Shown here: piece by piece, positions 3,975-50,192 of the stretch
Layout: every line of letters starts with the position of its first letter
Numbering within the stretch: position 1 is the stretch's first letter
DNA from: Ulva prolifera
Lineage: Eukaryota > Chlorophyta > Ulvophyceae > Ulvales > Ulvaceae
Direction: 5' to 3'
Assembly: GCA_023078555.1 (NCBI GenBank)
Contig: CM041200.1
Location: 9,296,356-9,360,355, forward strand
Length of the DNA: 64,000 bases
Made by a program: the position numbers and the translations under genes
Notes under the pieces: model-generated
What the model was told of the DNA's origin: nothing
Database searches by the model: none
The model's input: only the letters and a program-made list of their open reading frames with translations

Positions 3975-4010
<36 letters not shown>

Positions 4011-4198: not shown

Positions 4199-5095
4199 AA
4201 ACAAACCCCACCCAGTGTTGATGGGGCAGGCAGTCCCGTCCGATGCCCTCACGCAGCTCACGGGCCAGCCGGCGCAAGCGGCACTGCACGCCCGCTGTGG
4301 CTGCTTGTTCGACGGTGGTTGCTGCGTACGCCCCATCCTGGTCCGCTTTGTGGTGGCGGTGGTCATGGCAAGTCGTTTGCCGAGGGTGACAAGCCTGGCG
4401 CTCGGCGTTCTGCGCTTTGATGTCGCCCCAGCCGGCGCCCTTGGCTCTGGTGCAAATTGTTGGCGCGCCAACGGTATGGCGCGCCTGTGTATGCATGGCT
4501 ATTGGCGAGGTTGTGTGGTGCCGTTTGCGGAGCTCCGCACCACCTCGAGGTATATACATATGGGGGTGCTGGCCCTGTGTTGCGTGTTGGTGATTGCATG
4601 GGTGTCCGTGCGCTGCGCTGCAACCTGCTGCGTCTCTGGCTTGGTGATGAAACACAGACCCCTGCCGGTTGAGGCCGAGCCCGGCCTGCCGCACAGGCTT
4701 GCCCCACAGCGGGTGCATATGCTACGGTATGCATGCTCAAGGCGGCTCGTAGGGCGCCCGGGCTGCGTTTTCTGCTGCGGCGATTCATGCTAGGGCCATC
4801 TCGAGAGCTCTCTACCGGAGGGGATACGTCTGGAAGCTTGCACCCTTCGGCGATCTGGCTGCGGCCCACCTGCCAATGGCACCGCGTTGGAGCGCATGGC
4901 CCCGCGTGTGAGATGTACAGAGCTCGGGCCTCGTAGCAATGTGTTGCCATGATATGCACAAACCCACACCGGAGGCTTGCAAATGACGCAGAAGGGGCCA
5001 TCGTGTTCTGAATCTAGAGCACAGAAGAGTACACTCGCTTGCGGACCAAAGTCTCTGCAGTTGCCAGCGCCACCCATCCGCCAAACGTACCAGCG
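4199..5095. other. Intergenic and promoter region of copy B, with repeat debris
   Basis: The left part (about 4,215-4,345) is repeat DNA related to 32,875-33,020. Near 4,855-4,880 a GCGGCCCACCTGCC-type segment resembles the DNA about 300 bp upstream of copy D's start (near 14,400), so part of the promoter region is shared. No gene is supported. Confidence 0.5.
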
Positions 5096-19821: not shown

Positions 19822-21541
19822 TCAATGAACTCCCCAACCAGACTGGTCCTCAGATGAACAGCAAGCTATACCTGGTGTTGCTGCATTGTGTTGGCCAGCT
19901 TTGTGTTGGTAGAGCCGTTTGACAACGGAAAGCTTGAATTGGCCTCCAGTGGGGCGGATGAAGCAGCGAGGGCGGGAGCTGGACATGCTAGTCCCCAGTA
20001 CGATGGTAGAGCTGTTCATACTGCTGTGAACGGTTTTGTGTTTTGATGGCATTTCCCCAGCATCCACGGGCCGATGGCCCCCCATCAAGGCCTCACCAGG
20101 TGACCACAGCTGCAAGCAGAAAATCAGCCTCTCTGTCACATGATTGCGACTAATGTCTAGTATTCGCCGAATAAGACCCATCCGCTGTGCCACCATCACC
20201 ATGCAGAACCGGAAGTGGTGATGAAGTCGCTAGCCTCTGCACGTGGCCGTGCGGGGAGGGGTAGACGTTCGTGAGCAGCAGGCACATACGGCTTGTACGT
20301 GCAATGGCTACCGCTTGCTAGCTGCCCTCCCAAAGCTGAGTTTTTGGATGTGTGCGTCGACAATATTGCGCAGGAGATGCTTGTGCTTTGGGACCCGATT
20401 ACTCTACTGTAAGTTGCAAGCGACCCGTTTGAGCACAGATCAGTGTCAGGCTGCCTCAGCGCGTCTATGTGTGGACGTAAGCTTTGGCATTTGCATCGGC
20501 TATCGCCATACTGCACTGTATTCTTGCTGAACCGAGACCTCTGCAGCGCTTTCGTGCGTGTTTTGATGGTATCACCTTGCAGTATTGCAATGTATACAGC
20601 ACCTTGCCCTGTTGGAAATGAGCCATGGATGTCGATGCAACTGCAGTTGCATCGACAAATCCACGAGGGCAATGCAGAGGAGGTGCTACCAAGAGCAGGC
20701 CCAGTCGCGCATGCTACAGACCACCTCGAGCTCTGGCGATTGCAGCAGTATTCTCTCACTCGAGTAGACCCTCCAGAGCAAAGCATGGCTAGATTTGCAG
20801 TGCAGTCAGCTACTGCGGAGTCTCCCGACAGAATCAGCAGACCATTTCAAGACATTTCCTGTCGAGCTGTGGCGCTGGCATAACATTTCGTGTCCGGGAG
20901 GTAGGCATGGAGCCTGTCGCTCGTGGACGGAGAAACGGAAGTTGTCCAGCTGCATGCATGTCTCTGGATATGCAATGGTGCACCATGGTGCCCTTCCAAG
21001 GCACGGATAGTCCAATGTTCGGCACCAGGTACACAACTATAGGAGTGTCGTGTCGGTGCGTTCTGATTTTCAGCCGAAAGCACCGCTGTTCGCGATGAAT
21101 GCTGCCGAATTACCGCCGGTCGACACTTCTGTCGCCTCCTGCTTCAGCGCTTCAGCCATGTCGACTTTGGCGGAGATGAGGCAAACCACATCCTGGCCAG
21201 ACAAGTACGCAAAGCCAAGTACTGGGCCACAAGATGACAACTACACTCCACAGGTGCTCCCACTCAACCTGGTAGAAGCGTGGCATTGGGACTGGATTTG
21301 TGAGGCCGCGAGCTCGGGCTGTCAGCTAGATACGTCTCTGCCGGTCGTGTCCGGAACAACTGTGAAGGCTGTGCAAATGCGATGCATCAACCTCTTGCAG
21401 TGTTTAATCTTGATGATGTCGGGTCAGCTCCTCCGGCGCGCCTAGGCGCTGGGGCTAATTGAACGTCTCTGACGGACCACATTGCCTAAGCTCTGCAGCC
21501 TGGTTGGCATACGCTTGATAGCGTGGCCTGGTGTTTATGCA
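19822..21541. other. Intergenic between the two arrays
   Basis: No gene is supported; open frames of up to about 195 codons on the reverse strand have no domain or paralogue. The stretch contains a perfect 28-bp palindrome at 20,630-20,657. The TGTCTC-type palindrome found upstream of P2-P4 was not found upstream of P1. Confidence 0.5.
20630..20657. repeat. Perfect 28-bp palindrome
   Basis: The half-site TGTCGATGCAACTG is followed directly by its exact reverse complement with no spacer. It could be a protein-binding site or a cruciform-prone sequence. No copy was noticed elsewhere in the window. Confidence 0.7.
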
Positions 21542-24247
21542 ATGATGACTTCCGCGCTGCATCAGGTCACACTGCTGCCGGACGGCGTCACTTTTTCCAA
21601 CTACCTGCCCGTCACCAAGCGGAGCAAGGAATGCTACGATATCGTCTCGCCCTGTCACATTCCGAGCATCAAACTTTCCCTACTCATAGAAGATGACGAA
21701 GAGCAGCTGGCTATCAAGATCCCGACGGCCGTTCTCGACAAGATCCCAATGCTCAAGGACTTCAATCAGGTAGCCGTGGGCGAAGAGTTGGATCCTTCCA
21801 ACGCGGGCCCTGTGGCCACAAGCTATGCAGCTGGCAGTGCTCACACAGCTGAAGCCTTGAATGGGGGTCCTCCATCAGCCGAGAGTCCCGACAAATCGTC
21901 ACAGTGCAACACAGGCAGCGGAGATAGCAACTCGCGATCGAGCTCACAGATGGAGGCGACCTTTCCCAGAGTTGACGCCGCAGCACATGACGCCGGACCC
22001 GTGCCAGCGGCTCACAATTCCCCGCCAGCAGGCACCTGCTTTGAGAGCAACTCCGCGGTGCTGCAACTACCAGGAGGCTCGTGGGGGCTCCTGGTGATGC
22101 TGAAGGTGCTGCTGGACCGCCACGTCGACCTCGACCGAGTCCTCCTCGTTGATGCGATCGAGCCGGCCGGAGCCGCTGCCCTCGCGGTGTGCCTCTCACT
22201 CCTGCTCCGAGACTCTGCATGGCCATGAAGGCTTGTAGAAGGCCTTTTGTGCACGGCGAAGCGCCAACGCATGCCGTCAGTCGGTGCATGCTTGTGTGTG
22301 AATGTGTCCCCTACTGTACCAGGTAAAGTTCATAGATAATTGTCAAGGCACACCACAGTGTGTAGACCGGCTCCGGCTACTGTGTCATGTCAATAGCGCC
22401 ACTGGCACTACTTGATGCTCCATTGATGTCCATCACCACTCGCGGCTGCCGCATCCCTCTGTGACGAGAGGTTGAGATCTGTATACGCATCTAGTCCACA
22501 ATTGTGATCTGGCTGACATGGCTCTTCCTGAGGCTGGCGGTAGCGGTGCCGCACGCAAATCTCTGTCAGGGCTATGCCTGGGTGCAGACGGCCAAGTATC
22601 TCGGCTGCGATGCCGTTTGTGAGAGGATTCGGGAGTGGCTTGCGGCCGGCCTGGGGAAAATCTGCACAGACCACTCCAACAGCGGCGACGCAGACGCCAT
22701 TGCATGGCGCCAGGTGCACCCCGTGCCTCCTTGCTAAATGAATGACATAATGCTGCCTATGGATCCAGGTCAACACCTGTGTGGCGTGCCGACAGTGTGC
22801 AGCATGCCGGGACTCCTGGTACCCATGCATATATATGTGGCGCTACGGCAGAGAACTTGCTGTGGCATCAGATGCGCAAGCGGTACCCCAGAAATGGGCT
22901 GCAACTAAGATAGTTTTGTAAGGCGCGGGTTCTGAAGGCGCGGGTTCACGCGAATTCAGTTCTCGAGGACATGAATGTTACCAGTGTCACTGGACATGTG
23001 TTACAAGGACAAAGCAAGCGAGGCAGGTGGCACCGCAAGCAAGAACCAGGGGAACCGCACACCACGCAGCAAGCCACACAAAGCTCACACCAAAACACCC
23101 ACGCAACGGCAGCACTCGCGCCGGACACAGCCACACAGCCACACAGCCACACAGCCACACACACGCCCACACCCACACGCCCACCCCCATCCGAACCCCG
23201 CCCACTGGCCATGTGCAGGCCGCATTGGCGTTTGTGCATGGTGTGCCTTGTAGACGCTCTCAAACTGATCTGTTCCTGCTAGTGCTAGCATAATTGTGTG
23301 CACTGGCAGCAGTCTTTCATCAAGAGTGACAGGGATGAAGCCAGAGAGGCAGGTGGCACTGCAGGTCACCAGTAGGGGCACCACACACGAACAAGGCATC
23401 CATCATGTGCATGCATGGGCGCATGTAGGTGCTGGATGCACTCCCAGATGAGGAGTTCAGCATGTGCCTGAGGCAGCCGCACCAGCTCGTGTCCTCCACG
23501 GCAACAGCAGTGAAGTTGCCGGCAAGGCTGAAGGTGAAGTGGCTGCGAGCCGACTGCCTGTCCGTGTTGGACCTGTGCGCCCCAGAGGTCACGCTGACGC
23601 TGCCAGTGTGGAGGAGCCTCGTGATGTGCATCAGTGTGGTGCCCAACCTGAAGCAGCTGGCCTTGAGGCTGCCCCGAGGAGAGGGCCGGGCCGCGAACGT
23701 CATGATCAGCGCAAACTCGTCCAGACCACGCCCACTGTTGGCAAGCACCGTGCCCGTTGCAGCTGTGGGACAAGGAGACGTTGGCGCGTACGTGAGCGGC
23801 GAAGCCATCGTTGCCCTACTGCATGCATCAAACCACCTGAAGAGCCTCCGCACGCTGACTCTGGAGGACTCTCCGGTGGCTGCCGCTGACCTCGGCACCT
23901 TCTGTGACGTGCTTGTCAGCTTCTCTGGTAGCCTCACCGAGCTCAGCATCGATGCATGGAAGGCGAAGGACACCAGCACCAAGCCAATCACATCCTATGA
24001 TGTGAGTACCAGGCGCCAGGTGCTGGACTCCCTAGCGCGCCTGAAGCTACTGCAGGAGCTTCGCATTCGGGACTGGGCCAATTTAGTAGCCCGTGACTGT
24101 GAGGGGGGGAGAGTGCTTAGCCGATTGAGGTACCTGAAGTCGATCACTGTGGGTGCATCGTTTCCGTGCACCGTCGCTGCTTGCGCTGATGGCAAGTGCG
24201 CTCACTTTGATGGTGCCTTACCGTTCAAATCCGCCGTTGCTGAGTAG
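21542..24247 (+). CDS. BTB-like/LRR-like protein P1 (internally deleted paralogue)
   Basis: Exons are 21,542-22,186, 22,588-22,713 and 23,429-24,247, giving 529 residues; a second ATG at 21,545 aligns better with P2. Exon 1 has the conserved start (VTLLPDGV, KECYD, CHIP), IKIPTAVLDKIPMLKDF, a variable Ser-rich linker and LLVMLKVLLDRHVDLDRV. Exon 2 has AKYLGCDAV, which with the preceding helix resembles the end of a BTB/POZ fold. The last exon has VKWLRADCLSVLDL and leucine-rich-repeat-like LRTLTLEDSPVAAADLGTF, ending in a Cys/His motif. Unlike P2-P4, exons 3 and 4 are fused in one frame and about 70 residues with the CxxC pair are missing, so a deletion removed the intron and the knuckle. The role is probably as a protein-interaction adaptor (inferred). 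Confidence 0.75.
23002..23210 (-). repeat. Family A repeat in P1 intron 2
   Basis: On the reverse strand it ends CTTTGTCCTTGTA. The body carries CACAGC/CACACAGC repeats homologous to 31,500-31,690. The preceding flank ACATGTGT resembles that of the 26,188 copy, but a matching right-hand duplication was not found. Confidence 0.6.
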
Positions 24248-25241: not shown

Positions 25242-25812
25242 GTGTCAGAGCAGCCGCCAGGTGCGGAGTTCGGCGTGTCACCAGATACGTGTGAACAACT
25301 AGCTCCGCGACGCTGTGGAAGAGGTCACCTCTACAGCACTGTTGCTGCCTCCGCGGCTCAGAACAAAGTGGCTCCACGCAGACTGTCCCGTGACCCTCGA
25401 CAGCGCAATGGCCTCTGCAGCTGCCCAAGAGATGGAGGGATGTGGACGGAAGCCTCGTGGCCATGGAGTAGCGTTGTCGTTGCATGCGGTGCCCGGGGTG
25501 CTACAGCTGCGTGGGTATCCTCGCAGCGGTGTAGAACACGTCAGCAGTGCTGCATCATCTGAAGCGCTCAAGCCACATCGAGAAGTCATGTATCATCATG
25601 CAGTTTCGAATTCATCCACACACGCGGCGTCCGACTCCAGTTGGACGGCTGTTGGACCACAGTGTTGGTACTTGATTTACCACAGCTTGAGCCTTCCATT
25701 GATAGAGGCCCTGCAGTACTGCCCCCCGGCGTGCCTGGCAGCATGTGTCGGAGGCAAATTCCAGCCTGAAGATCCTACGTCTTCTCAGGATCGGTGACTG
25801 GACTCCGGATTG
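25242..25812 (+). pseudogene. Decayed P-family relic
   Basis: After an acceptor-like CCAG, the DNA at 25,242 matches the start of P-family exon 3 (GGAGTTCGGCGTG against GGAGTTCAGCGTG). In a shifted frame it then reads LPPRLRTKWLHADC, matching LPARLKVKWLRADC. Near 25,770-25,800 a third frame gives SLKILRLLRIGDWT, matching the exon 4 segment LKLLQELRIRDW. The required frame changes and missing middle show a dead copy lying between P1 and P2. Confidence 0.7.
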
Positions 25813-26608: not shown

Positions 26609-27410
26609 GTCCAAGCACCAGGACGCACACGTGTGTATGTGCAGCTGCGTTGGGGACGGTGTCTGTGCATGATGTGCTTTCGCCATGCCTGTGGCTGACT
26701 CAACTCGAGGCCCATGGTCGCAGTACGGATCCATCGATGCCGACTCCGAGTCGGATGTATACTTCACAACCATTACGCGCAGCAGCCTAGTGTCGGCTGT
26801 GCCGGCTTTTATGCATGCACGTGTGCGCAGGCACCCTGCAGCTGCCTGATAAAGCTTCTGTGACACTAGTGTCACAGAAACGTAAACAAACTCAGACTCT
26901 GTTGGCAAGCACGAGGCAGGCGTCTCCATTTGCTCTTGGGGATATCATGTGCAAGTGAGTTTGACAAGGACAAAGACGACGAGGCGGGCAGCACGGCAAG
27001 TTGAAGTGTAGTACTACACTAGTGATCATGAGCACCTCCAGGACATACTTCACCCAGTCCGGCGCGATGCAGCTTCGCCAGCACTAGCACAAACCGAATC
27101 CAAGCGCCTACACGGCTGCAACCGTACACCAACACGACCTCCACACATGCTCCCCCATGCATGTATGTGGCGCATGTGCACTCATTGTGCCTATAACATT
27201 TGATAGTTAAGGCCTCCGGAGGCTGTTTCGGGAGAAACTTTTGGGCCGTGTTTGTTCAGGCCGGTCACTGTTCTTCAACAGCTCATGGAGCTTCATGAGT
27301 TGGATCAAACTCTGTGCTGTGGGGGGATATCCAATATTAATGATCTAGTGGCCTAGACCGCACAGGCACTGCAGCTGAGCTCATGTCAGGGCGCACGCAT
27401 GCATGCATAC

Positions 27411-27444
27411 ATGAGATTGTCTCCCAGCTGGGAGACAATCTCAT
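27411..27444. promoter_or_regulatory. TGTCTC palindrome upstream of P2
   Basis: A perfect 34-bp palindrome whose half is ATGAGATTGTCTCCCAG, about 390 bp before the P2 ATG. It is preceded by GCATGCATGC. Equivalent palindromes precede P3 and P4 at similar distance, so it is a candidate regulatory element. TGTCTC is also the land-plant auxin-response core, but that link is only a resemblance. Confidence 0.6.
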
Positions 27445-27831
27445 CTTCCTGGGCAGCTGCATGTCGTGATTAGCCGCATCCTGAGGCCCGCGGACCTCCA
27501 AGTTTCGCCAGCAGTCTTTCCCGACTAGTACTGTGTTCATGGGCAGGAGCGACTCACATGGGCTTGCACCATTTACGCATCGACCACTTGAACGATCTGC
27601 TCGAGCTCTGGATGACGGCGGCTGCAAACGTACATGGTCGCAGCCGCTTCTTGGCTCTCGAGATCCGCCTGCGACAGTGACATTGTTGCTAACTATTGCA
27701 CCTGATCAGTACTAGCTATTCGCGACTCATAACAGGCTCCTAGCTGCAGCCTGGCCGACGTACACAGCGTCGCCTGACACTGACAAGGTCAGGTGCACCG
27801 CTGTAGATATATCCTTGTAACACTGTCGCAG

Positions 27832-30800
27832 ATGACGTCCAAGCATCGCGTCACGCTGCTGCCTGACGGCGTCCAGGTCTCCAACTTGCAGCCCGTCGCT
27901 AAACGCAGAAAGGAGTGCTACGAAAGCGTCATGCCCGGACACATTCCAAAAATCAGAGTCTGTATGAATCTGCAAGACGATTCCGAAGAGATATCCATCA
28001 AGATTCCGGTGAACGTTCTCGACAGAATTCCGATGCTCAAGGACTTTCAGCAGCTTGCGAAGGGCGAACTACTTGACGTGAAGCCTGTTCAAACGCTGCC
28101 TGTGGACACAGGAGATGCAGCCAGCGCTGGGGAACCTGACACAAGCACAGCTGCAGCCAAAAGTAAGGGTCGTTCATCGGCCCAGAATCCTGGCCATTTG
28201 TCAAAGGGAATCAGAGCCAACTGCCAGTGGCCGAAGCAGTACTTCACATCGCTCGTGGGCTCTGTCGACGCTGAGTCCGGCTCGAATTCACATGCTGGCA
28301 CGCGTGATCCAGTGTCTAGCGAGGCAATCCAAGAAAGTGGCTCTGCAGTGTTGCAGCTTCCAGGAGGATTGTGGGGGCTGCTGGTGATGCTGAAGGTGTT
28401 GCTGGACCGCCACATCGATCTCGACCGAGTCCTCCTGGTTGATGCCATCGAGCCAGCTGGAGCGGCCGCCCTTGCAGTGTGCCTCTCACTCACACTCCGG
28501 CATGCAGGCCGCAAGCGCGATGAGTGCACACTCTGGAAACCAGTTTTTCCGTCAGCTAGTGTTGCATGTGTGTCCCATGAATATGTGGCGCATACAGCTC
28601 TACTAGTAGAGCTGTGTGGTATGTACATAAGGCAGTGTATGGCATAGTGCAAGCTACCGTTTCATATCAACACAAATGTGCGCTGTGTCAATACCTCCTC
28701 TCAGGCTTGGCCTGTCTTCCAACTGGTTTCGTCCTACCATACTCAGTGATCGTCAGGCTACCGGTGGCGGGAACTTCTGGTCCGAAGATCTTGGGTCGAC
28801 CCTTTGCGCTGCACTCCGATTATTGCTGCTATTGCCCACGACTGTGGCATGCATGCTCATCTGCAACAGTGCCCAAGCATGTGCAGATGGCCAAGTATCT
28901 GGGATGCGATGAAGTGTCGATGAGAATCCGGCAGTGGCTTGCGGGCGGGCTGGGCAAAATGTGCTCAGCTGCGGGCCACTGCAAGAGCGGATACGATTGC
29001 AAGGACGCCATCGCATGGCAGCAGGTGCTGCAACCCGCGCCCACTTCTGAATCAGATCACGTGTGATACGTGTTGTTTGTGTGCGCACTTGACCTTTGCA
29101 GATTTTTTCAATTTTTGGGCGTGCATTCTTCGTTTGACCAGAATTGTTCAGGTCCGTACGCGTGTGCATTCTCAACTCATCACGCGTTTACATGGTGGCA
29201 TGCAGGTAGTGGATGCACTTCCGGACGAGGAGTTCAGTACAACTCAGAGGCAGCCGCACCAGCTCGTGTCCTCCATTTCAGAGGCCATCAAGCTACCGGC
29301 AAGGCTGAAAGTGAAGTGGCTACGGGCAGACTGCCTCTCCGTCCTGGACCTGCGTGCTCTGGAGGTGCCGCTGACACTGCCAACGTGGATCAGCCTGGTA
29401 ATGTGCATTTGTGTGGTGCCCAACTTGAAACTGCTTGCCTTGAAGCTGCCCCGGGGTGAGGTGCTCCAGCAAGGGCTCTACAATGCAAATGGTACACTGT
29501 TGGCAACCCAGTACCTGACCGACACCTTATGCCAGTATTGTGACAATGCTGCTTTCAACCAGATGCGCCAGGCAACCATCCAAGGAGGACCGGATTATCC
29601 GTTCACCGTCGACATCCCCATTGGAGTCACGGCTACATGCGGAAATAACCCCACGTGTACCCGCTGCCAGTGCGATTCCCCATCGCCTGAATATGCGAAG
29701 TATGTACACTTGTTACAAGCGTCTTTTCATTCTCCAAGTCTGCGTTCAAGTTGTAAACGTGTCTACACGATTGTCTGGCATATGAATTCGATACTGCGGG
29801 ACATGCCAGTGAATCTGCCTGGTGACTACTACTAGTAGACCCACTTCAACATTGCTGCACAAGCCTAGATGTGTGAAGCTCAATCGCACTTGCGGTCATG
29901 CCACCGGGAGCAGTGTGCAAGGTTGAGCAAGTCTTGGCCACATGTACACCCCACGTGTGGCCGGCCTTTCTGCATCTGCATCTGGTGGTCTCAGCCTGCA
30001 GGCTGATTCTGCGAGATATATGATAGCACGCTTGGCTCGTTGTGGTGTAGCGAACATGCAGTACTGACTAGTCACCCTTACCGTAGGGCGTGCTAGCATA
30101 TGCTATGGCCATGCATGTGCAGTTAACTGGTCGACGTACGTGACGCGCAATCCCCTCCGCCAAGAAACCCTGTGAGCTGTGGTGTTGTGGTGTCCTGATA
30201 TGGACTCCATAAGTATACCGGACATCCCGATGATGTGGACACATCATCGTCGCAGCGTTGATTTCAGCACAGTGCAAGGGCATGGCCTGTACAGTTAGCT
30301 GCACTGCACTCAAGTTGAGAATCAATTGAGAATCAAGCCTTACTGCAGGCTATGGACAACATTAATATTCTCATCCGGTTGTGCAGGCGTCAAGGGTCCT
30401 TGCTGGACTGCTCGCACCTATTACGACCACGTTGGCAATCGATGCAAACAGCAATGGCTGCGGCAAAAGGAGATGTGAGCTCATACGCGAGTGGCGAAGC
30501 CATTTCTGCTCTGCTACATGCATCAAATCATCTGAAGAGCCTGCACACCTTGATTCTGGAGGACTCTCCGGTGACCTCCGCTGATATTGGCATCTTCTGT
30601 GGCGCCCTTGTCAGCTTCTCCAGCAGCCTCACTGAGCTGCGCATCGATGCATGGACGGCCAAGGACAGCAGCACAAAGTTGCATACCACCTACGATGTGA
30701 GCGCCCGGTGCCAGGTCCTGGACTCTCTGGCAAGGCTCAAGCAGCTGCAGAAGCTCTGCATTCGGGACTGGGGCAATTTAGTGGCCGGTGACTGCGAGGG

Positions 30801-30936
30801 CGGCAGGGTGTTGAGCAGCCTAAAGTTTCTGAAGACAATCACTGTGGGTGGACAATACCCATGCACGGCGTGTGCAGAGGGCGAGTGTGCCCACTTTTTT
30901 GACGCCTTGCCATTCCAAGCTGCAGCTGGTAAGTAG
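27832..30936 (+). CDS. BTB-like/LRR-like protein P2
   Basis: Four exons: 27,832-28,476, 28,887-29,024, 29,206-29,669 and 30,387-30,936, giving 598 residues. Donors are GTGTGC, GTGCTG and GTGCGA; acceptors are GTGCAG, TGCAG and GTGCAG. Residues 1-75 are conserved among paralogues (HRVTLLPDGV, IKIPVNVLDRIPMLKDF) and about 76-163 form a variable linker. Residues 164-261 (LLVMLKVLLDRHIDLDRV, MAKYLGCDEV, IRQWLAGGLG) resemble the C-terminal helices of a BTB/POZ domain. Exon 3 has VKWLRADCLSVLDL and two CxxC pairs (CQYC, CTRC). Exon 4 has leucine-rich-repeat-like strands (LHTLILEDSP, LTELRIDAW) and a final C575-x2-C578-x4-C583-x-H585 motif. Known BTB proteins often recruit substrates to Cullin-3 ligases. 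That role, and the BTB assignment itself, are inferred from weak sequence resemblance. Confidence 0.8.
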
Positions 30937-31240
30937 TTTTGGGTTTCTGTATTAGCACGAATTACCAGTGCCAGTGCACAAGCAGCTGTGTTTGTTGGGG
31001 TTTGCGTGTGGTAAAGGAATTGTGTGCTAATCCGTGTTGGTGAGCGTGCACCACGTTTGGCATAGGAGGGCGTGGGCTACTTTGCTTCGCGGTGGTGATG
31101 AGCGGTTGCTGGTATCTGCAGGGGTCACTGGCTATACTTGGCTTGATTGCGCTTTGTATGGTGACCCAGTTCTGGTAACACTGTCCCCTCGGTGCTCCCT
31201 GCTTCCGAGGCCAATGAGTCATTGACTGTTCTATCACAAC
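30937..31240. other. Intergenic after P2
   Basis: Nothing recognised between the P2 stop codon and the G tract that opens the composite repeat block. Confidence 0.5.
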
Positions 31241-33890
<2,650 letters not shown>

Positions 33891-35211
33891 GCACATGCAC
33901 CCAGCAACCACACCTCTGTCCAAACGGGCTTGCGCCCCCGGGACGACCTATCTGTAACTACAGACCAGAAACAGCAGGCAGTGCAGGCGTGCAGGTGCTG
34001 GAAGTCTTAGCCATTGTTGTTTGGCTGCAGCGTCCCTCGTGACCGGTGATGGAGTCGGCGTTAACCCAGCACCTGCTGCGCCATACGGGCCTCACCAGCA
34101 AACTGTGGCATGAGCTCTGTCATTACAAATGCAACCTCCAGCACATTGGACAGTACGGTCACAGTCCATGCTTTGCTGCACATGTCCGCGACCTCTCACC
34201 TCAGGCACTCGCAACAGCATGTTTGATCAGTTCAATTGAGATTTGTCATCAGTGGGTTACAGCAGCCTGCATGCACCAGGCCTGAGACAGGTTCCCCCAC
34301 CTGGAGCCCCTGCTTGAAGACTTTTCTGCCACACATGTAGCGCTTCCCACGGCCGGGCCCATCCGCATAATCCCGAACATGTACAGCGGCAAGTTAGGGC
34401 AGCACTGGCCCCGACACAACAAGCCCGTTCAATGCAGCCAGCAACCGCGCAACGTGATGGACACAGCTGCACCTATCAAGACGGAGCGCGGGGGCCCTTT
34501 GGGGGACAGCGAACAGAGGACCAGGAGAGCAGAACGCTGCTCAGGCCCGATGTCATCTTCATGGAGCGAGATTTCCGGATGGGACCAACCTGGTTTACGT
34601 TGTCAAACCTCTACATGAGACTTCACATGTAGATGTAGACTGCATCAGCGCTGAAATAGTCTTGCCTACGTAGCGTGCCGTCAGCCGTCAGCGGGCAGCC
34701 GGGGGCGCCTAGCGAGCATGAAAGCAGGTGGAAATATTGCGGATAGCACTCTCAAAGAGAAGCTGTCTTTGGGTTGCGCCGCACCCTGCAGCCATGTCTG
34801 TCCGAGGCTGGCTGCTGAGGAATCCAACCGCAGCCGGGCCGGGGCCCCGGGGCACAAAACACCCCCGCATGCTAGCGCTTCCCCTCCTCCCCCAATTCCC
34901 CCATAAGGCGTCAACTGCACGGGTGATGAGGAGGCTTTGGCAGCATGCGCCGGAGGCGGACTTGGCCCCACCCCTGGCAGTGCACAGAGGTGCAGAGGAC
35001 TTGGGATGAATCAGGCCCCCGGGGCCTGTCTCTCTGATCTAGATCAGATCTGTTGCACCGACACCGAGCTGGCCCAGCTCCAGGATACAGGTGAGTCCTG
35101 CGCCGGCGCCATACCTAAATACCAGCTATGAAGCGTAATCCTGTGATTGTTTGAAACAGTTTGTACTTCGTCAGACGCTTGTGACATTGAGAAGGCAGTA
35201 GCAACACATCG

Positions 35212-35276
35212 GGTGAGATTCGGTTTCAATGTGTGTTTTCTATATCCTAGCTAGGAGAATTCTCCTGTTCACTCGT
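35212..35276 (+). repeat. R1 retroposon fragment
   Basis: Contains GTGAGATTCGGTTTCAATG and ends CTGTTCACTCGTTG, with an internal CTAGCTAGGAGAATTCTCC segment absent from other copies. Imperfect flanking repeats (GCAACACATC and GCTAAGCACATC) may be a decayed target duplication. Confidence 0.6.
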
Positions 35277-35427
35277 TGCTAAGCACATCAGAACTGGCTT
35301 TGCAACAACGATCACCGAGCTTGCGTTCTGTGCTACTAGCTATTAGTAATCGAAGAAGCGAACACAAGAACCAATGTTCGCAAAGCGGCTGCGGAATCCA
35401 CTTCCCCAGGGTCACGCGCATGCATGC

Positions 35428-35453
35428 GATTGTCTCCCGGCCGGGAGACAATC
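35428..35453. promoter_or_regulatory. TGTCTC palindrome upstream of P3
   Basis: A perfect 26-bp palindrome with half-site GATTGTCTCCCGG, about 270 bp before the P3 ATG and preceded by GCATGCATGC as at P2. The outer arms match the P2 element while the central bases differ (GGCC against AGCT). Confidence 0.6.
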
Positions 35454-35723
35454 TCGTCTGCGTACAGTCTTGAGGCGACCAGCAGACTGTAGCCATTCAT
35501 CTCTCATCCAACTGCCTCCAGATTGGCGATAAGCAACCCAAACCTCGTACAAGCTATAGACACCACTTCTACTGTCCTCTCTTGATGACTGTGTGCGGGG
35601 CAGCGGCTTGCCTTGGTGTTGGAGGTACGTGAAACACGACACCTTGTGAAGGAACCACCACTTGCAATTGTTCAGCCTAGCCGGTTCGCGAACGTTGAGC
35701 AGTTTGACCAAGCCATGCCCTAG

Positions 35724-38700
35724 ATGAATTCTTCGGTGCACAAGCATCGCATCACGCTGCTGCCGGACGGCGTCCGGGTCTCAGACTGCCAGCCCGTCAG
35801 CAAGCGCGGCAAGGAGTGTTATGACAGCGTCTCCCCCTGCCACATTCCGAAAATAACAGTCAGCATGAATACCCAAGCCGAATCCGAGCAGATCGCCATC
35901 AAGATCCCGTCGGACGTCCTTGACAAGATTCCAATGCTCAATGACTTTCAGCAACTGGCACTGCTCAATAGGAATGATCCTGTGCACGTTCGGCCTCTGA
36001 CCACTGGTGGCACCAGCGACATAGCTGCTGATTATACCACAGCTGCATCCAAGAAGGGGGGGCGAACATCAGCCAAGCCTTCTGATGGCGCATTGAAGAG
36101 GCTTCTCAGAAGCAGCGGCAGATCGCAGACCAAGGCTCCCGCGGCCTCCGGTGTAATTGCAAACGATGGCGACAGCTCCTCTCCACTGGCAGACGCTCAT
36201 GACTCCTCAGGAGCTGGGGATGAGAGCAAGTCCGCGGTGCTGCAGCTGCCGGGAGGCTCGTGGGGGCTCCTGGTGATGCTGAAGGTGCTGCTGGACCGCC
36301 GCGTCGACCTTGACCGAGTCCTGCTCGTTGATGCGATTGAGCCGGCCGGCGCTGCTGCCCTCGCGGTGTGCCTCTACCTATACCTGTAGCCGCTAGATAG
36401 AAAGTACTCCGGTGTGAAAGCAGCGACAATGGTAACACACAGTGGCATAGGCATTGATATTTGCTGTCCGCAACCAGTGGTACATGTGTAATACATGTAG
36501 TACTTGCGAGTGCCATGCAAATGTGGTGCACAGAGCTCTGTCGCAGAGCACAGTACATGTATATCACCGACGTATACACAGCTACGCGTCACTACTTTGC
36601 ATGGAGCTGGTTGCTACATCACATCAGCAGCAATTGTTGTTGTTGTTGTTGTTCTTGTAGTTTTTACACGTCTTCAATTCTGCTTGTCGCTCTGGTTGTG
36701 CATCACCTGAAAAGCTGATGTATCTATATATACTGATGGAGTCAAACCTTCGCTTCCATCAGTAAGCTGAAACGGTACCTCTGATCATCTTGAAGCACGC
36801 GCCACAGTGGCTTTGCATGTATTTGCCAAATACATGGTCCCGGATTTCGGAGTTGTCAATGTCCAAATGGATACGGCTATGCAATCATGCATGCGGCCTC
36901 TGTCCTTTGTAACTACATACATGTGGGCCCCATCTCAGAGTCTGCACTGCGGTGCTGAAAGTCCGTGCTCTCGCTGCAGACTGTGGCATGCACATGATAT
37001 GACCAACCCCCTCAGGCTGGCATGTGCAGATGGCTAAGTATCTGGGATGTGATGCCGTGTCCGTGAAAATCCGGCGATGGCTTGCGGGCGGCCTGGGCAT
37101 CATGCCCTCATCTGACGTCTCAGCGGATCAAGATCTTTCTCAAAGCGGGGACGAGGACGCCATCGCATGGCTGCAGGTGCGGCATCCCAGACCCTCTTTT
37201 GTGTCACCACAGACACTAGTACTTGGTATGAAGCTTGACCACGTTTGCTCCCAAATATTTGGCTCTACGTCAGCAGCTGTATGTGGAACACGTCCGAGTT
37301 CTAGTCAGATTTTGCCTATCAACTCTGAAGTAGTGATCACCTGAAGTTTTGACCCCGAGAGTCTGTGAGCATGCGAATTGTGACGCACATCGTCAACCTG
37401 AACAGGATCATGGCATTTTTGCAGTCCACATAAACTTGACATAGAAAGTACTCGTTGTGCATGTCCGACATGAGTCACACGGTGTAGTTTCCAATTGGAC
37501 AGAGTGTGCATGCTAGCTAGTGTACATGTGCAGCGACCTTTCCCCGCGCATCACGGTATGTGTGGTGCCATGCAGGTGCTAGATGCACTCCCGGACGATG
37601 AGTTCAGCGTGTGCCTGGCACAGCCACACCAGCTTGTGCCCTCCACTGCGATGGCAGTCAAACTGCCGGCAAGGCTGAAGGTGAAGTGGCTGCGAGCCGA
37701 CTGCCTCTCCGTGCTGGACCTGCGTGCCCCAGAGGTAAACGTAACGCTGCAAGCGTGGAGGAGCCTGGTGATGTGCATGACCGCGGTGCCTAGCCTGAAA
37801 GAGCTTGCAGTGAGGCTGCCCCAGGACGATCCTCCCCAGCCTCGGGATAACATCACACAACCTCGGTCACAGTACCTAAGAGGCTGTTTATGCAGTCGAT
37901 GTGACAGTGCCGCATATCGCCGACTTCTGCAAGCAGCCCGGAACGGACAAGCCAATGCTCAGTTCGCTCAGGCTGCCAACATTCCGGACGGAGTTGACGC
38001 GACATGGCAAAACCTTCAATGCGACGGTTGCAGGTGCGCTCTTGTGTGCGTGAACAAATGTGCAAGCAATAGGTTTGTTTTATGCGCTGCTGCTGCACCC
38101 TCTCGTGATCGACTGATGATCTCAGATAGAGATATATATAGCTAGTATTTTCTGCTCCCGTTCACTCTTGTGTACCAAATGTACGATATCGATCCAATTC
38201 CTGCGGCTGAACCAGATCTAGATCTGCACTGCAGATGTGGGCAACGTGACCAGACCGTCCTAGCTACCATACTGTCATATGGCATTCACGCGATTGCTCA
38301 TACCGTAGAGTATTCCAGAATAGGACTTTGGCGAGTTGGGCGAGATATATATATACTGCTACTGGTAGCACTAGCTAGTGCTACCAGTAGCAGTATCTCG
38401 CCCAACTATAGGCCTAGGGAGGGGCCCCTCCTTTGCAAGCTAAAGGGTGACGGCTAGCTGTAGTTGCATGCAATATTAATTGGAACTTGTTCGAGAGATC
38501 TGAACCAACAAATTTAAAGCTACATCATCCTTCTCGCAGAGGGTTTGAAATGCGATTGACTTCACCTCCCCACTGCAGTACACATGTGTAGGCAGACGGG
38601 GTATGTCGTGGACTGTTCACAGTGGCTAAGACTGCGTGGGCAGACCATGTCGGCTGCACCGGCTACAGCTGGAGCGCAAGGAGGTGTTTCTGGTCACGTG

Positions 38701-39159
38701 AGCAGTGAGTCCGTTGTGGCTCTGCTGCATGCATCAAATATACTGAAGAATCTCCACACGCTCATCCTGGAGGAGTCTCCGGTGGCCGCTGCCGACGTCG
38801 GCACCTTCTGTGGCGCCCTTGTCAGCTTCTCTGGCAGCCTCACCGAACTGAGCATTAATGCGTGGACCGCCGAGGACACCAGCACGCATCCGCATGCATG
38901 CTACGACGTGAGCATCCGGCGCCAGGTGCTCGACTCCTTGGCGCGGCTCAAGCTACTGCAACGACTTCACATTCGGGACTGGACGAATTTAGCTGCTGAT
39001 GACTGTGAGGGTGGGAGCGTGCTCACCAGTCTGAAGTGTCTGGAGTCGATCACTGTCGGTGCACAGTATCCATGCACTACCTGCAGTAAGGAAAAACAGA
39101 GAGTGGGAGAGTGTGTTCACTTTGATGATGCCTTGCCATTCAAGGCATCTGGTGCTTAG
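35724..39159 (+). CDS. BTB-like/LRR-like protein P3
   Basis: Exons are 35,724-36,365, 37,030-37,176, 37,576-38,033 and 38,592-39,159, giving 604 residues. The ATG aligns with those of P2 and P4 (HKHRITLLPDGVRVSD). Exon 1 keeps IKIPSDVLDKIPMLNDF, the variable linker and LLVMLKVLLDRRVDLDRV. Exon 2 has MAKYLGCDAVSVKIRRWL. Exon 3 has VKWLRADCLSVLDL and the pairs CSRC and CDGC. Exon 4 has LHTLILEESPVAAADVGTF and a final Cys motif with an inserted KEKQR stretch (TCSKEKQRVGECVHF), longer than in P2 and P4. Intron 1 carries a SINE-related fragment and intron 3 a long hairpin. No defect is visible. Confidence 0.8.
36838..36930 (+). repeat. SINE-related fragment in P3 intron 1
   Basis: CCCGGATTTCGGAGTTGTCA and CCAAATGGATACGGCTATG recur at 45,246-45,296. 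In both places a CCTCTGTCCTTTGTAACTAC segment follows, immediately here and about 60 bp on at 45,355. The first part resembles the SINE body at 6,680-6,720. Confidence 0.65.
38334..38407. repeat. Long hairpin in P3 intron 3
   Basis: Arms AGTTGGGCGAGATA... and ...GTATCTCGCCCAACT enclose CTGCTACTGGTAGCACTAG and its reverse complement. The result is a near-perfect stem of more than 30 bp, with only a TATATA stretch unpaired. The transcript would fold into one long hairpin. Confidence 0.75.
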
Positions 39160-40233
39160 CTGTACGGATTGTGTATACGAAGCAGCCTGAGGCCTCCAAC
39201 AACTTCAGCCCTACGTATTTTGGCAGTTGTATTGTATAGGGAACGAGACCCTAGGCCTGTGCTGTGAGAGCTACAAGTGGTGTGTTAAAAGGATGAAGGC
39301 GGCGAGGTAACTGTAGTATACAAGTGGTGTATCTGCTCTTCACAACCAGGACATACGTTGAGACATGTGCATGCCCAAAAACCATTGCCAGTCAGTTAAT
39401 GCCCTAGGGCGTGGGCCTGGGCGTAGGCCTGGGATGGGTAGCCAGGACAACATCATCTACAGCTCACAGCACGTCCAAACTGTTCATTGGCATGTGAAGA
39501 TCTGACTCGTTTCTACCCTGCGATGACGTTACTTAAGTTTGGATATATGGAGCTCCATATCCTCGAGGATATCCTCCAAGTAGCCTTATAATTAGGTTGC
39601 AGCAGTAGCAGCCACGGCGACAGCCAGCCAGTGCCGGGCGATGGCCCGGGCCACGCTGTGGTAGGAACATGTTTACACATGACTCAGAGTGCTTCAACAA
39701 ACGAGCCACTGCAAAGACTTAGATAGCAAATTCCCCGGACAATGACAGCTGCTGCAGCAAGCTGATATCAGCTCATCATCATGATCTGGTGCATGTCGCG
39801 TAGGGGTGCCCACAACAAAGATGATTGATCACACAGGTGGCTACCAGTGCCTCTCAGTGATCAGTGACCAGGCCCGTACACTCTTTGTCTGCACATGAGA
39901 TTGTCTCCCGGTCGAGATCTCGGAGACAATCTCAGCTGCGGCCCAGCTGAACGTCAGCTTCTTCGGTAGGCCCGCGGGCCTCAGACTGCGGCCATGGATG
40001 CGTCAGCGTAGCGTCTCGAGATAAGTATATATACGTTTCCAGTCTTCGCAAACGCTCTGTGTGGACCAGCTGTGCGTACTGTCTGCTGTGATTACTGCGG
40101 TTGTGACTGGTACACCAGCGTTGGCGCTGGGGCCGCACACCTCTTCGTGAAGGACAGCCGCTGCGGCAATTGCAAGGTCCTCAACCTAGCCCGTATACAT
40201 TTTGTTACGTGAATATTACCACAGGTAAAGTTG
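39160..40233. other. Intergenic and promoter region of P4
   Basis: No gene is supported. It contains the promoter inverted repeat at 39,896-39,934. Confidence 0.5.
39896..39934. promoter_or_regulatory. TGTCTC inverted repeat upstream of P4
   Basis: Arms TGAGATTGTCTCCCG and CGGAGACAATCTCA surround about 10 bp, roughly 300 bp before the P4 ATG. The arms are the same as in the P2 element and the spacing is slightly longer. Confidence 0.6.
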
Positions 40234-43200
40234 ATGTCTTCGAAGCTGCATAAGCATCGCGTAACGCTGCTGCCAGACGGGGTGAAGGTCTCCGACTTCC
40301 AGCCCGTCAGCAAGCGCAGCAAGGAATGCTACGATAGCGTCTCCCCCTGCCACATCCCGAAGATCAAAGTCTGCATGAACATACAAGATGACTACGAGCA
40401 GATGGCCATAAAGATTCCGACGGAGGTCCTGGACAAGATTCCAATGCTCAAGGACTTTCAGCAGCTTGTCGAGGATGAAGACTCAGATCCTGTGCCCGGG
40501 GAGCCTGTGGCCAACAGCAATGCAGCCAGAGATTCCGGCTCAGCTGCTCTCACAGGCGGAGGCCTTTTAGCAGCCAACGCTCTTGGTAAAGCGTCTGACC
40601 GGCACAAGACCAATGGATCGAAGCTGCAGGCGTCTATGGCCTCCAGTGCCGATGCCGATGCCGGATGTCTTTCTGGCGCACTTGACCCTCCGACCAACGG
40701 GGCGAATCATGAGAGCAACTCTGCGGTGCTGCAGCTGCCGGGGGGCTCGTGGGGGCTGCTGGTGATGCTGAAGGTGCTGCTGGACCGCCACGTGGACCTG
40801 AACCGAGTCCTCCTGGTTGATGCGATCGAGCCGGCCGGCGCCGCTGCCCTCGCGGTGTGCCCCTCAGTCCCGTTCTGCATGGTCATGAAGGTGTTTCACA
40901 CGTGTTGCAGTGCACTGCAAGTGCAGACACTGGCACATGCATGGGCTGCCTGCATGCTCCGAGTCATCCGTGTCACACGCAGAGCATGCATGTGTACTAG
41001 TATGGGTTTACAAAAGAGTGTACTAGTATATATTCTGAAGGCACATGTACACGTTGGGTGACGTTGGAGTCGAACGACGATGGAGTCGTTCGCACCGTAT
41101 CATTGGATATATCATATGATGAAATCGGCAGTGTTACGTATACATGCGGTTTACACCAAATGTGATATGATTCCGGTTGTGGTGAAGCGCATCGCGCGGG
41201 CACATGTGCACACAGTGTTTGGGGCACATGTAGTACACACGGATTCTGTCAGGCTCTCGACAGATCTGCTACACTCTTGTGTGTCACAGCATTACGTCTT
41301 TGGCAATCCAGTGACATGGCCGCTATACCACTGGATCCTAGGCCTTGCACATCGCGATATCAATGGATTGCCACAGTCTCCCTGTTCGTATTGCATGGTA
41401 TAGTGATTTCTCCAAGTACACATGTAGCTGAGCTTCACTGGCAGCTCACAACACACTCAGATCAGTGCCTGAGCCCTTTGCAGATGGCCAAGTATCTCGG
41501 ATGCGATGCTGTGTCCGCAAAGATCCGGCAGTGGCTTGCGGGCGGTCTGGGAAGGATGTGCTCAGACCGCTCCAAGAGCGGAGGCAAGAGGACAATCGCG
41601 TGGCGGCAGGTGCAACACTCTATCCTTGCGCGCTCTGTCCAGGCCCCGCCTACACGTGATCCAGGATGTATACATAAATTTCTGATTCTTCGTGCGCGGC
41701 GACCATTCTGTAGTGCTCCCTCTATCTCGAGATACGAGTGGTGCCATGCTGCGCAGGTGTTGGATGCACTCCCAGACGAGGAGTTCAGCATGAAATTGAG
41801 CCAGCCACACCAACTCATGACCTCCACCGCAGCCTCGGTGGCCCTTCCTGCGAGGCTGAAGGTGAAGTGGCTCCGGGCTGACTGCCTGTCTGTTCTGGAC
41901 TTGCGTGCACCACAGCTCAAGCTGAAGTTGCCGGAATGGAGGAGTCTGGTGATGTGTATGAGCGTTGTGCCTGGCTTGAAGCAGCTTGCCTTGAGGCTGC
42001 CCCGAGGGGAGGCCGCTCAGCCTCAGGCCAGTCCGGGCGCGAAATCTGTGAATGGTGCTAGGTCCGAGTACCTGACCGGCTACATATGCCATCAGTGTGA
42101 TTGTGATGCGTACAACCAGATGACCCAAGCAGTCAACCGCGGAGGGCCTGATTTCCCCTTCTCTGTCAACATCCCCAGCGGAGTTTCGGCTACGTGGCAA
42201 AGCCGTCCCATATGCGACCGCTGCCGGTGCGATTCCCATCAACAGCGATATGTAGAATGCAGTGTGCATCCAATTCGAAGAATCGCAGCTTCACTCAAAA
42301 AAACTAGATCGGTCGCTGTCCGAAACCTGTCCACCGATTCAGCGTTCCTTCAAATTCAAATTTGGACATGCCGAATAGTACTTGCCAACAGTGTGTGCAC
42401 GAATGCATCTGGCGGCCTCCGCGCCAAGTCACCGTGCATGACTTCTGTGGCACTTGCAACCCGATTCAAAAGTACTGACCATGATCCTGAAGCTCTATCG
42501 CTGGCCTGCGGTCATCTTGCGCTCCGTAGTTTGCAAGGCTCCGTAGCATTCGTAAGCCAGCATATGTAAGCTAAATCTACCTAATGCATGTGTAGACTGC
42601 TACTGACAGGCGTATGCTTCAGAGCTATCCAGCATCGTGCGCTAGCGACGCCTTGGCGTCACGAGCAGCTAACCATTCCTTAGGGAACAATCCCTGCAAT
42701 GGCAAGCTACTTACACATCTTGGAGCTCCTAAGGGGGTGACCGAGCTGTGTGGCCAAAAACATCGATCGGCATGTAATTATGTGTTGCTTATAAGCAACA
42801 CAGTTGCGGCTAGTTCAACAGTCGGAGGCAGATCACAACTTTTTGTTACAGTCATTGCACACGTGAGGCGTCAGATTTTAGGTGTGGCTAGCACATCCAC
42901 CTCATTTGCTAGTAGTACATCCAAGACCTACTAGTATAGTATGGCACACTAGTATAGTATGGCACTGCTGGCAGTGTGAGCACAAAGGTGTATTCAAGAC
43001 ACCTGTACAAGTTTTTCTGCATGAACTCCGCTTATTGTGCATCGATTGCCAGAATGATGGCACCACCGGTGTGCAGGGGACAACAACTAATGGACTGTAG
43101 CCACCTGCCACGACCACGTGGACACAACGCCACCACTGCGTCAGCCGCCAGCTGCAGACAAGGAGATGTCGCCGCGTATGTGAGTGGTGAAGCCATTGTT

Positions 43201-47300: not shown

Positions 47301-48650
47301 GGCCCCCGGCTCTCAGAGCAGCGGTGAGTCCATCCGCAGAGGGCATGGCGTGTGTGTGGAGTTCTGCCGTGGGAGATTGTGATGCTGCCAGCAGACCGGT
47401 GTGAGTGCATTTGTGAGTGAGTGCCCGTGTTGGGTCGCTGTGCAGCATTTCCAGGGCTGCCACCCTGAAATTAGACCTGAATATTCAGAATTGCTACATG
47501 TGTCAGTGTTGGGTCGGGCATAGCAACCCTCAAGTTACTCCTCGCAATGATAACTCGATTTGCATGTTAACAAGTGTTTCGTGGCACTGCAGGATCACTG
47601 TTGCTGATTCTCACGCAAACAGGGCTACTTTGCTGCAACACAGACTCGGGGGTTCTTGAGTTGTCTCGCTGTGCAGCATTTCAAGGGCCACACCAGAAAT
47701 TAGACCTGAATATTCGGAACTGTTACATAAGTGAGTGCATGTGAGTTTGCTGCAGACTTGAGGTTAGGCAGCTGACGTCGGCGCTGTGACATTTAGTTTG
47801 TCTTCCATGCACCATTCCCAAAACTGGCTTTATGACATCTGTTACAACATCATAATTGATGTAGGCCTCATCAGGTGTGACAGTGAGCACAGATGGCATG
47901 TAGGCTCTTTGTTGGCTCTGACAATTGACCCCGGGAGGCGACTTCCAGGCACATGCCGCCATTGTAGACTCACACCCAGGCAACTCACAGTCTGGCCTCA
48001 CAGTGTGAACGATGGCATGTAATACACAGCGTAGAATCCCACATGGAGGCACACGCAGGTAGCAGCAAGGGCTGACCATGCGGGCTTTCATTCACCGAAG
48101 GCATGATTCAATTTGTGAACATGGTGTGTGAAGCTACAGCTCAGGAGATGGGGAACAGGGAGTCCCGCACCTCCAGGACGTCTAGCGCGGAGCAGGGCTC
48201 CTGATCATCGGCGCAAGCGTCGGGGAAGACTTCAGCGACGCTGTCCTCGCCTTCTAGCAAGATTTTCAGAGTAGCGAGCAGCGCCCAGATGGAGGACGGA
48301 AGGTGGACGGTACCTGAGCCCGGGAACGTCACCGCTGCCATCCGCGCCAGACTTTCGATCGAGTCATAGTGAGCAACGCCATCATCACCGAAGCTGATGG
48401 GATGGGGAGGATTGGCGTGGCCGGCGTTGGGGTCGTGACACGCTGCCAGCGCGGGGATCCGACTCGAAACAGATTCGACAGGAAGGCTTATGGAGAAGTG
48501 CTCTGCATCTTTGCTGAGGATCATCTGAATGGTGATATCGGGAATGTGAGAGAGGCCGAAGCGGTCGTAGCAATTCCTGCTGAGCTTGGGGCGCGGTCGA
48601 ACGTCGGACAGGGCGATGCTGTCCGCGTACACATCCACACGACAGATCAT
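44376..48650 (-). CDS. Divergent inverted BTB-like/LRR-like paralogue N
   Basis: On the reverse strand, exons are 48,650-48,171, 46,969-46,832, 46,119-45,617 and 44,997-44,376, with the same phases (0, 0, 2) as P2-P4, giving 580 residues. Exon 1 is shorter (160 codons; RNCYDRFGLSHIPDITIQM matches KECYDSVSPCHIPKIKVCM). Exon 2 begins MAKYLGCDDV but its second half is Gly/Pro-rich. Exon 3 begins with LPDAEF and keeps VKWLRADCLSALDV; donor GTGCGA is at the conserved place. Exon 4 has LRLLELHHSQIAPAQTHAL, LEELKLDCW and a terminal YPCAECTNSACCHF motif. The strong divergence suggests an older, possibly functionally distinct member. Intron 2 contains a SINE and intron 3 a SINE-related fragment. Confidence 0.75.
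45246..45390 (+). repeat. SINE-related fragment in N intron 3
   Basis: Matches 36,838-36,930 for GGAGTTGTCAATGTCC and GGCCTCTGTCCTTTGTAAC, with about 60 bp of CATACATACA-rich DNA between the two parts here. Confidence 0.6.
46462..46733 (-). mobile_element. tRNA-derived SINE in N intron 2
   Basis: Reverse-strand copy of the SINE at 6,475-6,752: head TGGTCCAATGGGTTGAGGAC, B box GGGATCGATTCT, a body with CGGTCGTCTGAGGGGGGTTT, and a TTTACTTTACTTTACT tail. It is complete at both ends relative to the other copy. Clear target duplications were not identified. Confidence 0.75.
47431..47735. repeat. Pair of 75-bp direct repeats in N intron 1
   Basis: CGCTGTGCAGCATTTC...ATTAGACCTGAATATTC occurs at about 47,431-47,505 and again at 47,661-47,735, with a few differences. 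Confidence 0.65.
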
Positions 48651-50192
48651 GCTGTGCTGTTGGTCGGCAATAGGCAAACGTGGAGCATGTATTAATTAGG
48701 CTAGATTGTCTTGGCAGTGCAGCACTTGCGGAAAATACTAAGCATCGTCGGATCGTGTCACAAACGACTACCGCTCTTGGACAGTCGATCAAGCAATTGC
48801 AAGCAGTCCTTCCGGGTGCATGCAATGCAACTGCTACTCTGTTCAGCGTGTGGCTGGGTTGCAGGCAGCTACTGTCACAAGTTGCGATCAGCACGCTAGC
48901 ATGTGCACTTGAAGCCACCGGGACGACGGCACATGCATTGCCCAAGGACGCATGCAAGGAATGCACATTGTCTCCCAGGTGAAATGTCTCCGGAAGCGGG
49001 ATTGCAGCGCGATGCCCGTTGTGAAGCATGGTACAAGTCCGCTGCCCACCTACAGGCAGCTCTGCAACTATGTACTTGAAGTGGGGGTTACAAAAGAGTG
49101 AACGGGAGAAAACAAACACTGAAACCGAATCTCATCCGACTATGTACTTGAAATTACACGATGTTTCTGAAGCACACATTGTCTCCAAAGCAGCACTGCC
49201 CCCCAACTCGGAGTCGCGAGACGCAATCATCTGGATGCATCCACATCGCACATCTCACTTGTGACGTTGGTGTGCTGAACTAGGGCCTGCTGTATGGACG
49301 CCACAGTCGGATCAACTCGTCTCAACCAACGACAGTACCAGCCTGTGTGTGTGAGCGCGTGCGCTTGCATGTGAGCTGGCTGGCCAATGAAGCTGACGAG
49401 TGTATCTAGAGTCCCCAAGCACTGTGCGCAGCGCTGCGTAGTAGCTACACCCCTCAAGACTTGCTCTGGGGTCCCAGGCCCACCCAGTGCGTTCAGGTCC
49501 AACAGAGAGCTCATTATCACAACTCCAGTCCAGACACAGGCACCAGCGTGAGCTTACACCCGCACGAGCATCCTTGCAGCCTCCACAGACCATGCATGGC
49601 CATCATGTGCAGGCGCGGCTGCAGGCAGGCTCGAGCGGCAGCCCTATGTGGCCTGCAACCTGCTCGGCCTGCCCCACAGCCTGTCCCTACCAGCTCAGGC
49701 AATGCCAATACCCACCAGCCAGCCGCCACAGCGTCGACAGCGGCATCTCAGGTGCCTCCGCAGACCCCCCCACAGCCACCCCCAACCCCCCCCCATCCCC
49801 CTGCCCCTCACACACCTAGTCCTACTTCACCCCTCAAGCGCTAGCATACTGAATCGTACATAATCATGGCGCCGCCGAAGCCGGGGCGCGCTGCGTCAAT
49901 CCTCCTGCACCGCCCCTATGTGCCATCCTGCGTCACAGTGTACAGTCAAATATGCAAGCATGCATGCAAGCATGCCTGCACGCGCCGCTCACGCACCACA
50001 CGACGCGCCCACACTCCTAACTCCTGCCGCACGGCTCGCCTCGCCATTTGCGCCGATATCCCTGTCTCACAGCACGTGTCATCAACATCCTGAAACGAGG
50101 CACACGCCTCAGCTTATGGTCGACGCCCGCAAGTGCCACACCAGTGAAATTACGCATGCGCGGCGACACGCATGCATTTGTCGCATGCGACA
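48651..50192. other. Intergenic between N and the U-box/WD40 gene
   Basis: Contains the N upstream region, with TGTCTCC half-sites at 48,966-48,995 and 49,178 but no full palindrome, and the R1 retroposon at 49,081-49,138. The right part lies downstream of the U-box/WD40 stop codon. No gene is supported. Confidence 0.5.
49067..49152 (-). mobile_element. 58-bp R1 retroposon with 14-bp target duplication
   Basis: ACTATGTACTTGAA at 49,067-49,080 and 49,139-49,152 flanks 58 bp. Read on the reverse strand, the insert carries GAGATTCGGTTTCAGTGTTT and ends CACTCTTTTGTAACCCCCAC. Confidence 0.8.

Follow-up and report, generated by a model that had tools for sequence, protein, structure and literature searches.

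The window, a stretch of 64,000 nucleotides from the green alga Ulva prolifera (C5:9296356–9360355; the genome comprises 88.9 Mb in 44 contigs), contains five members of a small gene family, P1–P4 on the forward strand and N on the reverse strand. Upstream of P2, P3 and P4 are palindromes or inverted repeats with shared arms, each containing two copies of a 9-bp half-site, ATTGTCTCC (written ATTGTCTCC / GGAGACAAT in its 9–10 bp form), and copies of the same half-site are present upstream of N in a non-palindromic arrangement. The motif is real, paired and apparently selected, and lies in promoters of a single gene family. The genes and motifs concerned are the following.

21542–22213, forward strand: first coding exon of P1 (end approximate), a close paralogue without half-sites.
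27411–27444, no strand: P2 palindrome, perfect, 34 bp, with 17-bp arms and spacer 0; half-sites at 27416–27424 (+) and 27431–27439 (-).
27483–27498, no strand: second palindrome of P2, imperfect, with a CCGCGG core (-344 from the ATG), downstream of the P2 palindrome and resembling its P4 counterpart.
27832–28488, forward strand: first coding exon of P2 (ATG at 27832; end approximate).
35428–35453, no strand: P3 palindrome, perfect, 26 bp, with 13-bp arms and spacer 0; half-sites at 35429–35437 (+) and 35444–35452 (-).
35724–36371, forward strand: first coding exon of P3 (ATG at 35724; end approximate).
39896–39934, no strand: P4 inverted repeat, with 13-bp arms and a 13-nt centre; half-sites at 39900–39908 (+) and 39922–39930 (-).
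39968–39981, no strand: second palindrome of P4, AGGCCCGCGGGCCT, perfect, downstream of the P4 palindrome.
40234–40866, forward strand: first coding exon of P4 (ATG at 40234; end approximate).
48141–48650, reverse strand: first coding exon of N (end approximate), a distant paralogue whose half-sites are not palindromic.
48967–48975, forward strand: N half-site, exact ATTGTCTCC, 325 bp before the N ATG.
48983–48991, forward strand: N half-site with one mismatch, 341 bp before the N ATG, forming a direct repeat with the 48967–48975 site.
49178–49186, forward strand: N half-site, exact ATTGTCTCC, 536 bp before the N ATG.

The palindromes end 387 bp (P2), 270 bp (P3) and 299 bp (P4) before the start codons, which matches the approximate values of 390, 270 and 300 bp given in an earlier note on this DNA, although the positions it quoted as the three ATGs (27411, 35428 and 39896) are the palindrome starts. 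Placement upstream of all three genes holds as that note described it, but with a range of 270–387 bp the position is only roughly fixed. The palindromes were also described as near-perfect; their palindromic form is borne out, and those of P2 and P3 are in fact perfect, whereas the P4 centre is longer and asymmetric. The arms are kept while the centres vary, as had been noticed: CAGCTG in P2 corresponds to CGGCCG in P3, a symmetric change, and the 10-bp arms are identical across P2–P4.

Comparison of the 1.5 kb upstream of each gene gives cross-gene blastn matches (E <0.01) that all fall within the palindrome block (42–97 bp), with 42 bp at 88% between P2 and P3, 47 bp at 77% between P3 and P4, and 97 bp at 69% between P2 and P4, the last extending to the second palindrome with its CCGCGG core. 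The rest of the 1.5 kb is unalignable between P2–P4, and cross-gene matching in the introns is confined to a stretch of the first intron that reads as an internal exon. Fourfold degenerate sites show P2–P4 to be old duplicates, with identities of 55% for P2–P3, 50% for P2–P4 and 59% for P3–P4. The symmetric half-sites are conserved where the surrounding sequence has diverged, as would be expected of a promoter site for a dimeric factor.

The family has eight members with a placeable start codon, namely P1–P4, N, the pair L010 and L011 (C5:9.12 Mb) and L013 (C3), together with L037, a ninth locus with a first exon that cannot be read in one frame, and fragments. Five of the eight have two half-sites within 540 bp upstream, and counting exact ATTGTCTCC on both strands in 700 bp gives two each for P2, P3, P4, N and L013; nine of the ten positions lie between -267 and -416, the remaining one being at -536. 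The 9-mers are inverted with spacers of 6 bp (P2 and P3), 13 bp (P4) and 54 bp (L013), and the copies at N have the same orientation. The half-sites near 48,970 that the earlier note recorded at N, without a full palindrome, are present, one exact and one with a mismatch, and a further exact copy lies at 49178–49186. Its suggestion of selection on two half-sites gains from N and L013 each keeping two exact copies and from the identity of the P2–P4 arms despite 50–59% fourfold identity. A GC-rich second palindrome with a CCGCGG core is also present at most ~50 bp from a half-site at P2, P4 and L013 (-366 to -349); no CCGCGG is found in the 900 bp examined upstream of each of P3 and N.

Within the window, GATTGTCTCC with at most one mismatch occurs 12 times against 3.1 expected, and 0 of 100 shuffles reach 12, whereas the bare TGTCTC (33 against 34.6 expected) is not enriched. 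The genome-wide counts that follow are lower bounds. Both 10-bp arms, exact and with a spacer of 0–14, are found three times in the genome, all at P2–P4, and the reversed-pattern control is not found; with a 6-bp spacer and up to three mismatches there are just two extra places, both asymmetric and on C6. The arm 12-mer GAGATTGTCTCC has nine places in the genome, five of them at P2–P4 (control, 4). From the 480 genomic copies of ATTGTCTCC the expectation is 0.0038 per 700 bp, and two or more at L013, a locus not used to define the motif, correspond to a Poisson probability of 7e-6, uncorrected for the fact that four additional loci were looked at. Chance origin is ruled out by the window shuffles, the genomic arm count and the L013 Poisson value. 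In a 200-kb sample (20 places on C1–C6) no ATTGTCTCC is found, but with ~1 expected this zero is not telling.

Pairing of the half-sites is closely tied to the family. Convergent 9-mer pairs with spacers of 0–24 or 26–56 bp, the range that the pair search covered, occur four times genome-wide, and all four are upstream of family members. Spacers of 0–24 give six matches, of which three drop out when the outer bases are checked (the TTGTCTCC...GGAGACAA pairs at C1:1019775, C1:7528071 and C3:9222161, each one outer base short of the 9-mer), leaving P2, P3 and P4; the single pair with a spacer of 26–56 is that of L013. No gene was recognised among the open frames at the three discarded places. 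Among the first 100 of the 480 copies of ATTGTCTCC, which are the ones listed and come from C1 and part of C2, none lies within 2.9 kb of another. Of 600 random draws of six 700-bp segments, only one matches the observed three (P2, N and L013) that each have the same rare 9-mer repeated. Across all eight promoters five share the 9-mer, a number reached by 1 of 600 random sets, although P2–P4 are relatives.

Two further occurrences may be recorded here. At C3:9222160–9222322 (L042:960–1122), away from known family members and with no gene recognised, two exact half-sites and two with one mismatch are clustered within 163 bp, and two viral contigs contain an inverted repeat of the P2–P4 palindrome arms.

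The distribution of the motif within the family bears on its age. P1 has 58–68% fourfold identity to P2–P4 and is no more distant from them than they are from each other, so that its lack of the motif looks like loss. In a tree of eight short sequences, in which three of the five inner branches are weak and the root is placed at the midpoint only, N and L013 form a clade separate from P1–P4 and L010/L011 (support 99/98), and the motif occurs on either side of this split, which points to an old origin within the family followed by loss in P1. We infer that the half-site pair is old and disappeared from P1, and that in the C5:9.12-Mb group it is eroded or missing; with the root placed only at the midpoint, its absence at L010 and L011 may be either a loss or the older state.

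We consider it likely that each palindrome pairs two copies of a 9–10 bp regulatory half-site in the promoters of this family, the pair probably serving as a docking site for a putative regulator. A sequence-specific DNA-binding protein, probably acting as two molecules or as a flexible dimer, would bind the pair and would co-regulate P2, P3, P4, N and L013. Selection would keep the half-sites, and a mutational habit may perfect their symmetry: the near-perfect form at P2–P4 may owe something to copying from arm to arm by template switching. The same process would account for the symmetric change of centre and the many unrelated perfect palindromes nearby.

Several observations weigh against such a site. 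No exact ATTGTCTCC lies within 700 bp upstream of P1, L010 or L011; P1 has none even with one mismatch, in keeping with the earlier note, which had seen no motif there, L011 has one half-site with one mismatch, and at L037 no half-site is found across 3.2 kb even when one mismatch is allowed. Spacing and orientation vary among members, as would not usually be the case with a rigid dimer. Across the genome, ATTGTCTCC occurs about twice as often as its reversed control (480 against 223), nearly all copies being outside the family, and without the pairing requirement 169 of 600 random sets share a rare 9-mer in at least three of six segments, so that sharing by itself is ordinary.

The genome has more perfect palindromes than expected. 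The window contains eight zero-spacer palindromes with arms of at least 10 bp, where a third-order Markov model predicts 0.2, and the 200-kb sample contains three, where 0.3 are expected. Seven of the eight lie within 20630–42802, around and inside the gene cluster; two are those of P2 and P3, and the others are of unrelated sequence. The unrelated perfect zero-spacer palindromes are these.

38353–38396: 44 bp.
20630–20657: 28 bp.
26856–26879: 24 bp.
28594–28615: 22 bp.
42781–42802: 22 bp.

The sample also contains a 52-bp perfect palindrome at C3:2909719–2909770 (L024:9719–9770), which shows that long palindromes also occur elsewhere in the genome. This excess may explain the exact symmetry at P2 and P3, and it makes the palindromic form as such less special. 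Template switching perfects imperfect palindromes in yeast, as described in part of PMC3820800, and a process like that described there for quasi-palindromes would account for the perfect symmetry, for the symmetric change at the centre and for the unrelated palindromes nearby, but would leave the conservation of half-sites between distant paralogues unexplained. It is on this last point that we judge unlikely an origin without any function, in which an ancestral palindrome was inherited by duplication and its symmetry maintained by template switching between the arms: the palindrome excess speaks for such an origin, but arm copying aligns the arms within one palindrome and not between paralogues that differ at 41–50% of fourfold sites, and the half-sites at N and L013 are left without explanation. 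A stem-loop in putative transcribed 5′ leaders of P2–P4, controlling translation or stability, seems a little less probable still. The three folds are more stable than shuffled sequences (z of -3.7, -3.2 and -3.5, with 0, 1 and 0 of 200 shuffles as good) and a compensatory change distinguishes the P2 centre from that of P3, but good folding is expected of any perfect palindrome, half-sites in the same orientation at N and 54 bp apart at L013 form no equivalent compact stem, and an Rfam search of the window gives no family at the gathering threshold. Variable orientation and spacing suit DNA sites better than an RNA stem.

Inverted repeats can also be the ends of mobile elements, and tandem paralogues can gather insertions, but we regard the end or remnant of an element, or some other dispersed repeat, as very improbable here. 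The earlier note had named a palindrome dispersed equally far from genes as the finding that would speak against its proposal; the genome holds only the three exact copies, all at P2–P4, which rules out a dispersed repeat at this sensitivity. Relaxing the match adds only the two asymmetric places on C6, and past the short block there is no homologous body between the copies.

An auxin response element bound by a dimer of auxin response factors (ARFs), with TGTCTC inverted repeats at 8-bp spacing, is similarly hard to credit. Land-plant ARFs bind TGTCTC-N8-GAGACA sites of the inverted-repeat IR8 class, according to the portion of PMC10690724 that treats them, and the P2 and P3 palindromes are of this form. 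Like the IR7/IR8 elements they have inverted TGTCTC half-sites at 8-bp spacing upstream of genes; however, the half-site conserved here is longer (ATTGTCTCC), the spacing is 15 at P4, and N and L013 also fall outside the 7–8 bp class. TGTCTC-N2-22-GAGACA occurs 176 times genome-wide against 197 for the control and is not enriched, so a general TGTCTC inverted-repeat grammar was dropped; among the first 50 of the 176 listed, spacing 8 accounts for two and spacing 3 for 12.

An ARF gene was likewise not found by six-frame exon search of the genome, in line with the earlier note's expectation of a factor other than that of land plants. The auxin reading was at first encouraged by a single Pfam ARF_AD match in the genome (42.4 bits, cut-off 27), at L034 ~3858–6148 in the C3:8677218 region, where the BRWD/PHIP model scores 30.3 (cut-off 40). 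An ARID match above its cut-off (35.9 bits) lies within ~1.2 kb on the same strand, two sub-threshold Tudor matches lie farther along, and we infer that these belong to one gene. No B3 domain is found at this locus in a genome-wide six-frame exon search, in which an intron-split B3 could be missed, and the two B3 matches found are on other contigs (C2, and a marginal one on C5). With ARID beside it and no B3, the ARF_AD match no longer favoured auxin and the reading was dropped. AD-like or ARF ancillary folds are common to non-ARF chromatin proteins and ARFs are specific to streptophytes, as stated in part of PMC11685440 (see also PMC6797205), and an ARF is unlikely to be the factor. The ARF-type ancillary domain at L034 without B3 may shed light on how the ARF DNA-binding scaffold arose.

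Pfam search of the family exons gives nothing above cut-off, and structure prediction is unusable (mean pLDDT, the predicted local distance difference test, of 39 for the P1 C-terminal exon and 36 for the P4 N-terminal exon). A PDB sequence search, made with the P1 C-terminal exon only, returns one weak match to ribonuclease inhibitor (E 0.044), a hint of leucine-rich repeats at most, and viral contigs contain no relative of this exon. Between P1 and P2, positions 25324–25410 match the family C-terminal part weakly (E 0.065), perhaps as a decayed copy, and 31250–32470 between P2 and P3 contains a run of G and, after it, a CA repeat almost 800 bp long, adjoining GC-rich sequence. A literature search on five 10-mers returned nothing on algae or on such a motif among the matches listed, and further literature searches gave nothing on point; literature on green-algal palindromes concerns mostly organelle genomes, among the matches listed.

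A compound promoter motif largely private to one gene family is known elsewhere: SPE2 of the Plasmodium var genes is a family-specific element bound by an ApiAP2 factor. The Ulva motif resembles it in this respect, but differs in organism and sequence, and several members of the family here are without the motif. A bolder form of the paired-site interpretation, which we hold only tentatively and think rather doubtful, is that the family is a private regulon in which one dedicated factor, perhaps encoded by the family, reads the doubled ATTGTCTCC that marks its members genome-wide, while template switching repeatedly folds the pair into perfect palindromes; if so, a mutational habit of the genome shapes promoter grammar.

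Short of that, the half-site pair is a candidate cis-element with built-in variants, having 6-, 13- and 54-bp spacers and both inverted and direct arrangements, with P1 as a natural negative control. The near-exclusive tie of close convergent pairs to this one family offers a clean entry point to the putative factor, and the excess of palindromes raises the question of how mutation and selection jointly shape the symmetry of promoters.

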